The position numbers and the translations under genes were made by a program. This document shows, one piece after another, positions 54,431 to 59,367 of a DNA stretch of 64,000 nucleotides (its first letter is position 1; every line of letters begins with the position of its first letter). This DNA comes from Actinomycetota bacterium (GTDB lineage: Bacteria; Actinomycetota; Acidimicrobiia; Acidimicrobiales; Ilumatobacteraceae), in NCBI GenBank assembly GCA_005790505.1, contig SXUP01000009.1:1-64000 (forward strand). Direction: 5' to 3'. Below the pieces are notes generated by a model. The model ran no database searches and was not told where the DNA came from. It worked only from the letters and a program-made list of their open reading frames with translations.

Positions 54431-55255
54431 TTAGCCAAATGCGCGAATTGCGCGAACTGCATTTCCGGCAGTGCGGAATTTACTGCGAGTTCCCTTACCG
54501 GTTTCTCCCTGTCCGCCATTGCTAAAAACTTGCGCCCAGGCGAAGTTGGTGCACATGCGGCCGATCTTGCAGGTGGCTCCTACTTCGCTTGAACTCCAGT
54601 AGGCCGAATCGACAAATGCACCAAGAGGCGGAGCATGTTTTTTTAGATTTGTATAGATCAGACCCAGTTCATCTTTGGAAGGCAGGAACCAATCAGAATA
54701 TGTACCGACGGTGAGGTTGGCCGCAAGTACTCCAGCACCTGTTGTACACGCTGGCGTGATGGAGTCAGCCGTACCCGTTGTCATGATGAGAGTATTATGC
54801 GCACCAAATCCAATGTCGGTGCTAAACGGGATGTCGTCAAGGGTGATGGCATGCGTTGTGTCAGAACACCATCCAGCATCCAAAGAGACATCAGTTGGCG
54901 CAACTTCTAAATAGATTCCACCAGCACTGATTCCGGCGACAGAATTAATGGCGGTGGGGGAGACATAGAAAACAATTCCGCCACTCTGAGTGATGTCTCC
55001 GATTTTGCAAGCACCGCCAGACGCACATGAGGCGACCGTTGGCGACGCGGGTTTTTTGACCCAGATAAGTTTTTTGCCCACCTTTGTGCACACCAGCGTT
55101 ACTTTTTTTCCCTTCGCTGTGTACGACATTGTTGTTTTGGCTTTTTTACAGGAGTCACCACTTCGAGCCGCAGAGGCGATGCTGGGGAGAGTGATTATTG
55201 AAACGAGGCAGAGCACCGCCGTAGCAGTAGGAACAAACCGGCGTGAGGCCCTCAT
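54431..55255 (-). CDS. secreted DUF1566/Lcl-like C-type-lectin-fold protein
   Basis: The 274-aa product has a signal peptide (RRFVPTATAVLCLVSIITLPSIASAA) and a C-terminal domain with GGIVFYV, YSDWFLPSKDELGLIYTNLK and AYWSSSEV, which match the DUF1566/Lcl family, whose members bind carbohydrates or act as adhesins. A short Lys/Cys-rich region precedes the domain. It starts at ATG 55255 and faces the sulfatase gene, 66 bp away. Confidence 0.82.
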   Translation of the reverse strand: MRASRRFVPTATAVLCLVSIITLPSIASAARSGDSCKKAKTTMSYTAKGKKVTLVCTKVGKKLIWVKKPASPTVASCASGGACKIGDITQSGGIVFYVSPTAINSVAGISAGGIYLEVAPTDVSLDAGWCSDTTHAITLDDIPFSTDIGFGAHNTLIMTTGTADSITPACTTGAGVLAANLTVGTYSDWFLPSKDELGLIYTNLKKHAPPLGAFVDSAYWSSSEVGATCKIGRMCTNFAWAQVFSNGGQGETGKGTRSKFRTAGNAVRAIRAFG

Positions 55256-55321
55256 GGCGAGACAATAACACTTCAGAGTAAGGCTGAAGTAAGAGCGTTG
55301 CGGCTGTGGCAAGATGTCTAG

Positions 55322-57025
55322 ATGACAAGAAGTTTTGATACTCACGACAAAAATGTGGTGGTTACTTCAGGAGGACAAAGAGTCCACAAGGACCACTTAG
55401 CCCAAAGCGACGTCATAAAGGCGCAGTTTGATGAGGTGCGATCAGGGGTTTGGTGTCTGATCGGAAATGGTCTATCGAACCAGACTTTTATTCAGGCACC
55501 TGAGGGCATTATCGCTATTGACACCGGTGAATCTGAAGAAGAAATGACAGAGGCGCTTCGTCGACTTCGACAAATTACCGACGCACCGATTGCTGCAGTT
55601 ATCTACAGCCATTTTCATTATGTTGAGGGAACCACCGCAGTGTTTAAGGAGGCAAATCATGTCACGCCACTGCCCATCTATGGACATGAGAAGATTGGGT
55701 ACAATAAATCACGCATCGGAGCAGAAATTGCTCCAGCGTATGTGCGCGGAATCGTAGAGCAGTTCGCAATTGCAATGCCAGCAGATGGCCCCGATGGAAC
55801 AGTAAATGTTGGTCTCGGATTTTGGTTTCGTAACCCAGCTTTTCAAACGGTGACTGCAGGCTATTTGCCAGTGACTCATCCAATCGGAGAAAGTGCGTCA
55901 CTCACTATTGCTGGTTTGCGTGTCGAAATGAAGCATTCGCCTAGCGACTGCGATGACTCAATCAATATGTATTTCTCCGAGATTGCAACGTGTGTTCACA
56001 ACTCGGTGTGGCCAACCGTATTCAATGTCTATGCGATTCGCGGAGAGGAATATCGAGACCCACGTGTATTGATACCTGGAGTTGACAACATTATTAATTG
56101 GGCACCTGAATACATGGTCGCGACGCACGGTCCGGCGTTAACTGGAAAAGACAACATTCTTGAGAAAGCAACTCGGTACAGAGACTCTTTGCAGTTCATG
56201 TGGGATCAAACCGTTCGAGCTATGAATAAGGGATGGACGATGGACGAGATCGCATCTGGCGTGACACTGCCAGCCCTCTATGACGAGGATTATCTCACGT
56301 CGGAAAGATATGGAGTTGTTGAGCATCACCTGCGTCAGATCTACATTGGGCTGCGCGGTTGGTTTGATGGGGATGAGTCCAAGTTGTTCCCACTCGAGCC
56401 TCTTGAGCGATACTCAAAACTCATTGATGGGTTCGGTGGACGTACAGAAGTGGCAAAGCAATCTAAAGATGCTTTGGCAAACAATGACATCCGATGGGCG
56501 ACCGAACTTGCCACGTGGCTTGTGAGATCCAAAGGCGCGACTACGAGTGACAGAGAATTGCTTGCCGCTTGTCTGCGCGTGATTGCAGAACGAACACCTG
56601 CAGCCAATATACGCAACTGGGCAATTACTCGAGCACGACATCTAGATGCTTCCTCTTCAATGGATCACTTCAACAATCACAATTTCTGGTCAAACACGCT
56701 CGATACGACTTCAAGTACCGACCTTGTGCACACGCTTCGGGTGTTGCTTGAACCATCTAAGGCCGAGGGCATTAATCACCATGTGGCGTTTCATGTAGGT
56801 GGAGAGATCTGTGGACTACATGTTCGCAATTGCATTGCTGTTCCAACTGATGGAAGTGGTGCCCCTAGCGTGGTGACGATGTCTCAAAAAACTTTGCATT
56901 CCGTTTTGGGCAGAGGTGGTTCTTGGTCCGCGCTGGTAGCCGATGGCTCGATTGTTTTCTCTGGAGATGCCATCATGATTGATCGAATTCGTTTGGCGAT
57001 AGATAACGCAGGTTTTTCATCTTGA
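55322..57025 (+). CDS. alkylsulfatase-like metallo-beta-lactamase protein with altered metal motif
   Basis: The 567-aa protein has the layout of SdsA1/BDS1-type alkylsulfatases: N-terminal MBL domain (GLSNQTFIQAPEGIIAIDTGE, then YSEIATCVHN and THGPALTG), a helical dimerisation domain and a C-terminal SCP2-like domain (residues 450-567). The family HxHxDH reads H97-F-H99-Y-V101-E102, losing the Asp and one His that hold the second zinc. Whether it still hydrolyses alkyl sulfates is uncertain. It overlaps the arylsulfatase by 4 bp (TTGA), suggesting coupled expression. Confidence 0.85.
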   Translation: MTRSFDTHDKNVVVTSGGQRVHKDHLAQSDVIKAQFDEVRSGVWCLIGNGLSNQTFIQAPEGIIAIDTGESEEEMTEALRRLRQITDAPIAAVIYSHFHYVEGTTAVFKEANHVTPLPIYGHEKIGYNKSRIGAEIAPAYVRGIVEQFAIAMPADGPDGTVNVGLGFWFRNPAFQTVTAGYLPVTHPIGESASLTIAGLRVEMKHSPSDCDDSINMYFSEIATCVHNSVWPTVFNVYAIRGEEYRDPRVLIPGVDNIINWAPEYMVATHGPALTGKDNILEKATRYRDSLQFMWDQTVRAMNKGWTMDEIASGVTLPALYDEDYLTSERYGVVEHHLRQIYIGLRGWFDGDESKLFPLEPLERYSKLIDGFGGRTEVAKQSKDALANNDIRWATELATWLVRSKGATTSDRELLAACLRVIAERTPAANIRNWAITRARHLDASSSMDHFNNHNFWSNTLDTTSSTDLVHTLRVLLEPSKAEGINHHVAFHVGGEICGLHVRNCIAVPTDGSGAPSVVTMSQKTLHSVLGRGGSWSALVADGSIVFSGDAIMIDRIRLAIDNAGFSS

Positions 57026-59367
57026 GCGATCCTGCTGGTTTGTCGCTACCAACGGCAACTCCGCCGTTTAGGGGTGTGATGGGTCGCACAATTGCCGATT
57101 CAACATTAAGTCCGCTGCCGATTACGCAAGCGCCAAAGGGCGCGCCAAACATTGTGTTGGTGTTACTGGATGACGTTGGCTTTGGCACATGCGGGACATT
57201 TGGTGGACCTGTTCCTACTCCTGCACTCGACCGAGTTGCAAAAAATGGACTGCGATACAACCAGTTCCATACGACAGCACTGTGTTCGCCGACTCGAGCG
57301 GCAATGTTGACTGGTCGCAATCACCACACCGTGCATATGGGCGGCATTCCCGAGGCTGCAAATATTTTTCCCGGGTACGACAGCGTGATCCCCAAGGAGG
57401 CTGCGTCGATAGCGGAGATTTTGCGCTTGTCAGGTTATTCAACTTCATGTTTTGGCAAATGGCACCTCACGCCATTATGGGAGCAGACTTTGGCAGGGCC
57501 GTTTGATAGATGGCCAACAGGAATGGGCTTTGAGCGCTTCTACGGAATCATCAATGCAGAAGCATCCCAGTGGGAGCCGCCCATGTTTGATCAGACCACT
57601 CCGATCATGCCCTATGAAGGTCGCGCCGATTATCACATGACAGAGGACATTGTTGATCAGGCGATCTCTTGGATGAATATACAAAAGGCTTCACATCCTG
57701 AACGTCCTTTTTTTACATATGTCGCAACAGGGGCGATGCATTGTCCACACCACGTCGCGCAGAAATGGATTGATAAATTCAATGGACATTTTGATGGTGG
57801 ATGGGACGCGTTGCGCACTGAGATATTTGAGCGGCAATTAGAATTTGGTGTGATTCCTGAAACGACGCTACTGACAGAACGACCCGCAGAGATTCCAGCA
57901 TGGGCCGACTACCCGGATCGCTATAAGCCCGTTGCAAGCAAGTTGATGGAAACTTTTGCTGGCTTCCTTGCTCACACTGATGCCCAAATTGGCCGATTGC
58001 TTGACGCAGTTGAGGCACTAGGCATTGAAGAGAACACGCTGTTTATCTATATAACGGGCGATAACGGTGCGTCTGCTGAGGGAACCATTCATGGAGCGTG
58101 GAGCGCACCGTCATTTCAAAATGGTGTTCCAGAAGACCCTGAGTGGCTGCTTGATCATATGGATGATTTCGGATCAGCACGCTGCGAGAATCATTACAAC
58201 GTCGGGTGGGCATGGGCACTCGATTCACCGTTTCAGTGGATGAAGCAAGTTGCCTCGCACTTTGGTGGGACACGCAATGCAATGGCCGTGTCGTGGCCAG
58301 TGGCAATAACAGATGCTGGCGGACTACGCGACCAGTTTCATCATGTGATTGACATCATGCCAACTATTTTGGCTGCAGCCGGAATCAAGATGCCCACACA
58401 CGTGAACGGAATCCGACAGATGCCCGTTGATGGCGTGTCAATGTTGTACACCTTTGATAATGCACTCGCGCTTAGCAGGCGCACAATGCAGTATTTTGAG
58501 ATGTTTGGCAATCGGGCCCTCTATCACGACGGTTGGATTGCGTCGTGCTACCACGGTCGAGTGCCCTGGAATCGTTTTGGTACATTTCCTTTTGATGGTC
58601 CAGAAGAGAAATGGGAACTGTATAACATCCAAGATGATTTTTCTCAAGGAAAAAATCTTGCGCAGGAATTTCCGCAGAAACTTCGTGAGTTACGGGCTAT
58701 GTTTGATGAGCAAGCCAAGCAGCACAATATTTATCCAATGCGCGAACCTGGCTCATCATTTGGTCTTGCCATGGTGCCGCCAGAGAGTCTGGGTGGGCTG
58801 AATAAATTTACTTACACGACTGACCACGTTCGTATGCCCGAAAGATCCGTTGTGAGTCTAAAGAACTGCTCCTTTCGTATCACTGCTGTCGTTGATGTTC
58901 TCAGATCGGGAGTAAGTGGCGTGATCGCGTGTCAAGGCGGAAACATGGCGGGGTGGTCCCTGTATGTTGACGATGATGGACATGTGGTGTATTTGTACAA
59001 CTGGCTGGGTCACGAACAATATGTGGCGCGGACAGCAACTTCGCTCACTGTTGGTCGCCATGAAATTATTGTTCACTTTGTTTATGATGGCGGATTCGGA
59101 GCTGGTGGTCACACTGTGCTTCTGATCGATGGTGTTGCGGCTGCGTACGCGCGCGTAGAGAAATCCGTCCCAATCGTGTTCTCAATGAGCGGTGAAACAT
59201 TTGACATCGGGCTAGATACTGGATCTCCAGTCGGTCCGTACCCGCATGTGTTCAGGTTTACGGGAGGGATAAAAGGCGTGACGCTTGAAAGGCTGTCTGA
59301 ACCCTCTCCTGAGATTGCCGCACTCATCGCAGATGGCGAGTTTCGCGCCAGTCTTGCAACTCAATAA
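57022..59367 (+). CDS. arylsulfatase (formylglycine-type sulfatase)
   Basis: The 781-aa sulfatase has the metal-binding D50-D51 (VLVLLDDVGFG), and C88-S-P-T-R92, the CxPxR motif in which Cys is converted to formylglycine, then GRNHHTVHMGG, GKWHLTPLW and TGDNGASAEGT. Size and motifs fit the PAS-type family. No signal peptide is seen, so it may be cytosolic. TTG start overlaps the previous stop. A formylglycine-generating enzyme must be encoded elsewhere, since none is in the window. Confidence 0.92.
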   Translation: MSDPAGLSLPTATPPFRGVMGRTIADSTLSPLPITQAPKGAPNIVLVLLDDVGFGTCGTFGGPVPTPALDRVAKNGLRYNQFHTTALCSPTRAAMLTGRNHHTVHMGGIPEAANIFPGYDSVIPKEAASIAEILRLSGYSTSCFGKWHLTPLWEQTLAGPFDRWPTGMGFERFYGIINAEASQWEPPMFDQTTPIMPYEGRADYHMTEDIVDQAISWMNIQKASHPERPFFTYVATGAMHCPHHVAQKWIDKFNGHFDGGWDALRTEIFERQLEFGVIPETTLLTERPAEIPAWADYPDRYKPVASKLMETFAGFLAHTDAQIGRLLDAVEALGIEENTLFIYITGDNGASAEGTIHGAWSAPSFQNGVPEDPEWLLDHMDDFGSARCENHYNVGWAWALDSPFQWMKQVASHFGGTRNAMAVSWPVAITDAGGLRDQFHHVIDIMPTILAAAGIKMPTHVNGIRQMPVDGVSMLYTFDNALALSRRTMQYFEMFGNRALYHDGWIASCYHGRVPWNRFGTFPFDGPEEKWELYNIQDDFSQGKNLAQEFPQKLRELRAMFDEQAKQHNIYPMREPGSSFGLAMVPPESLGGLNKFTYTTDHVRMPERSVVSLKNCSFRITAVVDVLRSGVSGVIACQGGNMAGWSLYVDDDGHVVYLYNWLGHEQYVARTATSLTVGRHEIIVHFVYDGGFGAGGHTVLLIDGVAAAYARVEKSVPIVFSMSGETFDIGLDTGSPVGPYPHVFRFTGGIKGVTLERLSEPSPEIAALIADGEFRASLATQ

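Follow-up and report, generated by a model that had tools for sequence, protein, structure and literature searches.

A conserved HxHY variant of the alkylsulfatase metal motif in Acidimicrobiia and its coupling to one group of S1 sulfatases

The DNA analysed here (the window) comprises the first 64,000 nucleotides of contig SXUP01000009.1 (assembly GCA_005790505.1), from a 2.0 Mb, 97% complete genome of the Ilumatobacteraceae. It carries a pair of overlapping genes, open reading frame (ORF) 1, encoding an alkylsulfatase-like protein of the metallo-beta-lactamase (MBL) fold, and ORF2, encoding an S1-type sulfatase. In ORF1 the metal-binding HxHxDH motif is shortened to HxHY, and sequence comparisons indicate that this variant is real, conserved and coherent. 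The HxHY clade occurs in Acidimicrobiia, with some of its members originating from lakes, and adjacency and co-occurrence couple its gene to that of one S1 sulfatase. Our preferred reading, to which we assign a probability of approximately 0.55, is that ORF1 would be derived from the type III alkylsulfatases, with one metal in a 2-His-1-Asp site, and would serve the pathway of this sulfatase. The principal features of the locus are as follows.

55322 to 57025, forward strand: ORF1, alkylsulfatase-like MBL-fold protein of the HxHY clade, 567 amino acids, ATG start, assigned by Pfam, by PDB alkylsulfatase matches and by model and fold matches.
55610 to 55630, forward strand: shortened metal motif H97-F-H99-Y100-V-E-G103, that is HxHxDH minus two residues with the last His changed to Tyr.
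57022 to 57025, forward strand: four-base overlap, TTGA, in which ORF1 stops (TGA) and ORF2 starts (TTG).
57022 to 59367, forward strand: ORF2, S1-type (formylglycine-type) sulfatase, 781 amino acids, TTG start, PF00884 at 2.3e-59.

The original prediction for this locus, that H97-F-H-Y-V-E102 stands in place of HxHxDH, was borne out, residues 97 to 103 being H-F-H-Y-V-E-G. In a 30-row alignment that included ORF1 itself, the other rows being 47-95% identical, HFHY was found in all 29 rows containing the region; H97, H99, Y100 and G103 were invariant in these, and residue 102 varied (E, D, N, A, G and S). When ORF1 was aligned by profile with five alkylsulfatase chains from the PDB, including two forms of Pisa1, the second His was followed by a gap of two residues, so that Tyr100 aligned with the final His of HxHxDH; MAFFT gave the same placement. 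The motif has hence lost two residues, the x and the D, and its last His has become Tyr100. The register originally proposed, in which that His had become E102, did not survive this comparison: residue 102 is variable and E102 is therefore no replacement ligand, such that its role as a stand-in for the lost His is excluded by both the variability and the gap.

A scan of 395 genomes of the class returned 39 that match ORF1 at E <= 1e-80, comprising 36 with HxHY, two with fragments lacking the region and one with a canonical motif (G716, E 3e-87). A sequencing error, which the original prediction had named as grounds for its own dismissal, is contradicted by HxHY in 36 of the 37 class genomes with a readable motif. 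Nothing was found in favour of error, chance or a decaying gene, the odds of which we consider negligible given the uniform HFHY of the readable rows and a dN/dS of about 0.05.

Coordinated changes around both metal sites were evident in a 76-row alignment of a chosen set of proteins. Besides ORF1 and other members of its clade, this set comprised 27 canonical relatives of the same class, YjcS of E. coli and one plasmid-encoded protein each of Nitratireductor, Caballeronia and Vibrio fortis. The labels HxHY (46 rows) and canonical (30 rows) were set by the motif itself, hence only the other columns are independent of them. An excerpt of the report on the alkylsulfatase SdsAP (PMC5426288) lists D196, H197, H367 and E322 as ligands of one zinc, and H192, H194, E303 and E322 as ligands of the other. 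Counted along the alignments, ORF1 has H97, H99, D209, N227 and H269 opposite H192, H194, E303, E322 and H367, respectively, with the position of D196 deleted and Y100 opposite H197. The residues concerned lie at the following positions.

55946 to 55957, forward strand: D209-x-D211-D212, with D209 aligned to E303 of SdsAP, which is the third ligand of the site that is kept, and all three Asp invariant in the 30-row alignment.
56000 to 56002, forward strand: N227, aligned to E322, the bridging Glu in SdsAP, in the profile and 76-row alignments.
56009 to 56014, forward strand: W230-P231, a clade-specific pair beside N227 (76-row alignment).
56024 to 56041, forward strand: N235 to R240, of which N235 and R240 are common to canonical alkylsulfatases (at least 95% in both groups).
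56126 to 56128, forward strand: H269, aligned to H367, one of the SdsAP ligands at the lost site, and kept in both groups.

All 46 HxHY rows, that of ORF1 included, had the x-D pair deleted and contained Y100, D209, N227 and W230-P231. The 30 canonical rows all had HxHxDH, with the bridging position occupied by E in 27 and by D in three, and that of E303 by E in 29 and by D in one. Common to both groups were H97, H99, H269, N235 and R240, whilst D209, D211, D212, N227, F234, N235, R240 and H269 were invariant in all 30 rows of the smaller alignment. As judged from these alignments, the D196/H197/E322 site is gone save for H269, and the H192/H194/E303 site is kept as His-His-Asp. The earlier statement that the other ligand regions remain is thus only partly true, the bridging acid being replaced by Asn227 throughout the HxHY rows. 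Elsewhere in the protein, H336 and Q339 (each in 45/45 HxHY rows of the class) and E334 (96%) are specific to the clade, which suggests a rebuilt active site.

Such residues could also be read as replacement ligands, in that Tyr100, Asn227, His269, Asp211/Asp212 or His336 may hold a second metal and ORF1 may still be a dinuclear hydrolase. The invariance of H269 is in keeping with this proposal, as is the presence of Y100, N227, D212 and H336 in each of the 45 class rows, and of D211 in 96% of them. We nonetheless consider it unlikely, as that site has lost its bridging acid and its two motif ligands, H336 is a Tyr in the Vibrio fortis member, and Asn and Tyr are uncommon as zinc ligands.

A phylogeny with the motif mapped onto it, the check that had been suggested with the original prediction, placed the 46 HxHY rows on one side of one branch in the maximum-likelihood tree of the 76-row alignment (support 100/96). 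When the motif columns and their surroundings were removed, the same branch had a Shimodaira-Hasegawa-like approximate likelihood ratio test (SH-aLRT) value of 91, or 100 when four long rows were also left out. The Vibrio fortis protein and that of locus L070 lay on long branches, and their exact position is unsure. Relative to three relatives of about 89% DNA identity, dN was 0.03 and dS 0.5, and relative to a fourth these were 0.07 and 1.4; by these estimates the HxHY protein is under purifying selection.

The genomes searched were those of the window's phylum, beyond which plasmid records were used. A scan of 396 genomes of the phylum yielded eight matches at E <= 1e-80, all from the window's class. 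A match was present in 161 plasmid records, and the motif was read in four of these, being HxHY in Vibrio fortis and canonical in Nitratireductor, Caballeronia and E. coli YjcS. The Vibrio fortis protein, encoded by plasmid pLMG21557 (L038:5827-7665), is therefore an HxHY protein from outside the class, and has the same deletion, Asn and Trp-Pro. In two genomes of the class, G603 and G640 (L067, L077; L065, L076), an HxHY copy and a canonical HxHxDH alkylsulfatase were encoded on the same contig, which makes them naturally suited to comparison.

Co-occurrence with the partner sulfatase was counted over the 395 genomes of the class, with the HxHY protein found in 38 (two of them, G058 and G661, through fragments without the motif) and the partner, defined by at least 59% identity, in 37. 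Five genomes with a canonical match (G711, G716, G721, G737 and G739) were left out of the count. Both genes were present in 35 genomes, the HxHY protein only in three (G679, G733 and G809), the sulfatase only in two (G614 and G771) and neither in 355; these genomes are related, hence the cases are not independent. Inclusion of a partner fragment in G492 (61%) changes the counts to 35/3/3/354, and further fragments may be missed, given that at most two candidates per genome were scored and only at E <= 1e-180. Sulfatases of 42-49% identity (28 genomes) were not counted as partners. The HxHY match was lacking from 26 of the 28 genomes with only such a sulfatase, and the tie is therefore to one sulfatase group.

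The two genes are also neighbours. In 27 of the 38 genomes the sulfatase lay downstream in the same orientation, the aligned ends of the two being 2-35 bp apart, whilst the order was reversed in one other genome and the neighbours pointed in opposite directions in two. This adjacency count includes G679, where a 42-49% sulfatase is found beside the HxHY gene, and G809, where such a sulfatase is encoded elsewhere. In G320, G698 and G758, several kb on either side of the HxHY gene were free of the partner sulfatase, and linkage is therefore not essential. At L034:9701-12043 the partner sulfatase is broken by an in-frame stop, with pieces over 602 and 170 residues, reflecting either an assembly error or a broken gene.

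The partner itself has the characteristics of an S1 sulfatase, with the sulfatase domain and C/S-x-P-x-R pattern both present in ORF2. Its signature is located as follows.

57283 to 57297, forward strand: C88-S-P-T-R, sulfatase signature, the Cys of which would become formylglycine; aligned with the same site of the Pseudomonas aeruginosa arylsulfatase.

In the alignment to the P. aeruginosa arylsulfatase chain, which has Ser at the Cys site, the D-D, C-S-P-T-R, K-x-H, H, D-N and K positions of ORF2, which we take to be the catalytic residues of S1 sulfatases, were all in place. Because of this, and because ORF1 keeps N235 and R240, it is plausible that the pair acts on sulfated substrates; the latter two residues presumably contact sulfate in the known alkylsulfatases.

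A further explanation is that ORF1 is a maturation or chaperone factor for its partner, for example by making the formylglycine. None of the 32 genomes of the window's genus yielded a match above cut-off to the formylglycine-generating enzyme (FGE, PF03781), yet sulfatases there carry C-x-P-x-R, with at least four such Cys-type enzymes in G000, where a radical-SAM maturase model reached only 23 bits. FGE is present in 74 of 118 genomes of the order. Eight members of the genus, some with incomplete genomes, had no HxHY protein that could be found, and at least one C-x-P-x-R sulfatase was read in six of these eight; moreover, six HxHY-bearing genomes (G082, G603, G634, G640, G698 and G773) do encode FGE. 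These two groups of genomes rule out maturation as a general explanation, and we hold it to be very improbable in any form.

The preferred reading, that of a one-metal derivative, supposes that the clade was derived from a type III (SdsA1-like) alkylsulfatase fold by the dismantling of one metal site (the D and H of HxHxDH and the bridging Glu). One metal ion would be held by H97, H99 and D209 as a 2-His-1-carboxylate site, with N227, Y100 and H269 filling the space of the lost ion, and N235/R240 would still bind a sulfated or similar anionic ester. ORF1 would then be an enzyme whose substrate is either the compound on which the adjacent S1 sulfatase acts or the desulfated product. The single metal, its identity, the catalysis and the substrate are all predictions from sequence. 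The mono-metal subfamily of the original prediction is in this respect partly upheld, since a distinct subfamily with one metal site dismantled was recovered, with the one-metal state being the reading that appears to fit it best. It is conceivable, albeit speculative, that the clade constitutes a new class of mononuclear metalloenzymes, in which a 2-His-1-Asp site (Fe, Mn or Zn) performs chemistry beyond two-zinc sulfate-ester hydrolysis; an oxygen-dependent or lyase step on a compound desulfated by the near-obligate S1 partner may be offered as a tentative example.

Several observations weigh against the one-metal enzyme and its dedicated pathway. The partner sulfatase lies on another contig in 7 of the 38 genomes (in G022 a contig end splits the pair, and in G809 only a 42% relative is present), one of the 38 has no sulfatase, and no sulfatase is annotated within 6 kb of the HxHY gene of Vibrio fortis, nor was one detected there by comparison with ORF2. 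The ligands of the lost site include H269, and a simple one-metal reading would not call for the invariance that this residue still shows. F234 stands where 24 of the 30 canonical rows have His, so that more than a metal site has changed and catalysis may be lost. The residue-for-residue replacement hinges on gap placement, though the aligners used agreed, and confidence in the structural model of ORF1 is below 50 at residues 138-169 and 238-242, and averages 61 at 231-240, the block with N235/R240.

The loss of two motif ligands, the bridging acid and the His at 234, together with the coupling to one sulfatase, would also suit a non-catalytic binding or regulatory partner. Such a protein would retain the fold and the anion-binding residues without any turnover of substrate, and would either offer or detect a sulfated ligand on behalf of the S1 sulfatase, or join this enzyme in a complex. 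A precedent is provided by the class-C flavodiiron proteins, in which, according to an excerpt of PMC7785958, an altered motif precludes the binding of metal. The strict conservation of H97, H99, D209, H269 and many clade residues is, however, more than a mere binder would need, and we regard this role as doubtful. Given the invariance of the retained ligands and of numerous residues specific to the clade, ORF1 seems likelier to be an enzyme than a mere binder.

At the locus itself, the TTGA constitutes the last four bases of ORF1 and contains the ORF2 start. This overlapping start, a further element of the original prediction, was confirmed in the window and in each of the four nearest named relatives compared (5/5). 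These relatives, of 86-95% identity and drawn from one genome-collection scan, are metagenome-assembled genomes of Ilumatobacteraceae (two, 'Baikal-deep'), Acidimicrobiaceae and an 'acIV' bin. No hydrophobic N-terminus or evident signal peptide was seen in ORF1 or ORF2 by sequence inspection, and neither matched any NCBIfam family above cut-off. On the reverse strand, a 304-amino acid ORF with a GTG start (54431-55345) extends across the first 24 bases of ORF1; the actual start of this ORF may be more internal.

A Pfam scan of 30 other neighbour proteins from 15 loci revealed no apparent shared pathway. PLP-dependent enzymes of different families were encoded near the pair in 5 of the 15 loci (L083, L085, L091, L101 and L103) and are probably unrelated to it; in L083 and L103, from one genus, a PAC2 protein was also nearby. 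The neighbours in L085 presumably belong to haem synthesis, a TetR-type gene precedes the pair in L086, and L087 and L089 have the same neighbour cluster. Gene calling for these maps was crude, with ORF1 missed in some loci.

The family placement of ORF1 is based on whole-length homology. It matched the alkyl sulfatase dimerisation domain PF14863 (2.2e-25; 90.1 bits, cut-off 26) and Lactamase_B PF00753 (25.8 bits, cut-off 22.7). The C-terminal domain PF14864 reached 20.4 bits, below its cut-off of 27, in a region through which the profile alignments to PDB chains extend. Profile E-values for six PDB sequences ranged from 8e-62 to 4e-50. The ORF1 model, with ten-residue mean confidences of 87-93 at residues 91-110, 201-230 and 261-270, had SdsA1, YjcS, SdsAP and Pisa1 as its top fold matches, at about 20-25% identity. 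SdsA1 was the best (Z 30.6, rmsd 20.1 over 466 residues), and 8d2z matched with Z 24.4 and rmsd 3.3 over 286 residues. The large overall rmsd of the top matches (9-22 A) may reflect domain arrangement or model error.

In excerpts of PMC7785958 and PMC10340364, HxHxDH is treated as a hallmark of MBL proteins, and a conserved clade that drops both this motif and the bridging acid would be overlooked or mislabelled 'alkyl sulfatase'. Whether a single metal is enough on an alkylsulfatase scaffold is a question that the clade allows to be tested in nature, and the substrate can be sought through its S1 sulfatase partner. Searches of the open-access PMC literature listed no title about such a clade of HxHY alkylsulfatases. 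The SulfAtlas S3 entry rules, as given in an excerpt of PMC5066984, comprise HxHxDH and an identity to SdsA1 of 30% or more across some 600 residues. ORF1 has HFHYVEG, with its two-residue deletion, and 21-22% identity to the SdsA1 entries in structural alignments; going by its sequence, it is thus a homologue of the type III alkylsulfatases that falls outside the published S3 rules.

Amongst known systems, ORF1 shares the MBL and dimerisation domains, and H97, H99, H269, N235 and R240, with the type III alkylsulfatases (SdsA1, SdsAP, Pisa1 and YjcS; S3), but differs from them in its HxHY motif, in the change of the bridging Glu to Asn and in its dedicated S1 sulfatase neighbour. SdsAP also has a signal peptide, according to the excerpt of its report (PMC5426288), whereas ORF1 has no evident one. 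ORF2 resembles the S1 formylglycine sulfatases (P. aeruginosa arylsulfatase; 7all) in PF00884 and in the aligned catalytic positions, but is longer (781 amino acids versus 523-536 for those chains) and is coupled to an HxHY protein. The B2 metallo-beta-lactamases likewise have an altered motif, NxHxDR in the excerpt of PMC7785958, in which the first His is altered and the Asp kept, whilst ORF1 lacks the Asp side and retains the two His of the other site. A precedent for a one-metal MBL enzyme is offered by the persulfide dioxygenases (ETHE1-like), described in an excerpt of PMC12856154 as binding one metal on a 2-His-1-carboxylate triad (His71, His146 and Asp163 in PaPDO); the candidate set of ORF1 differs from this, being H97, H99 and D209.

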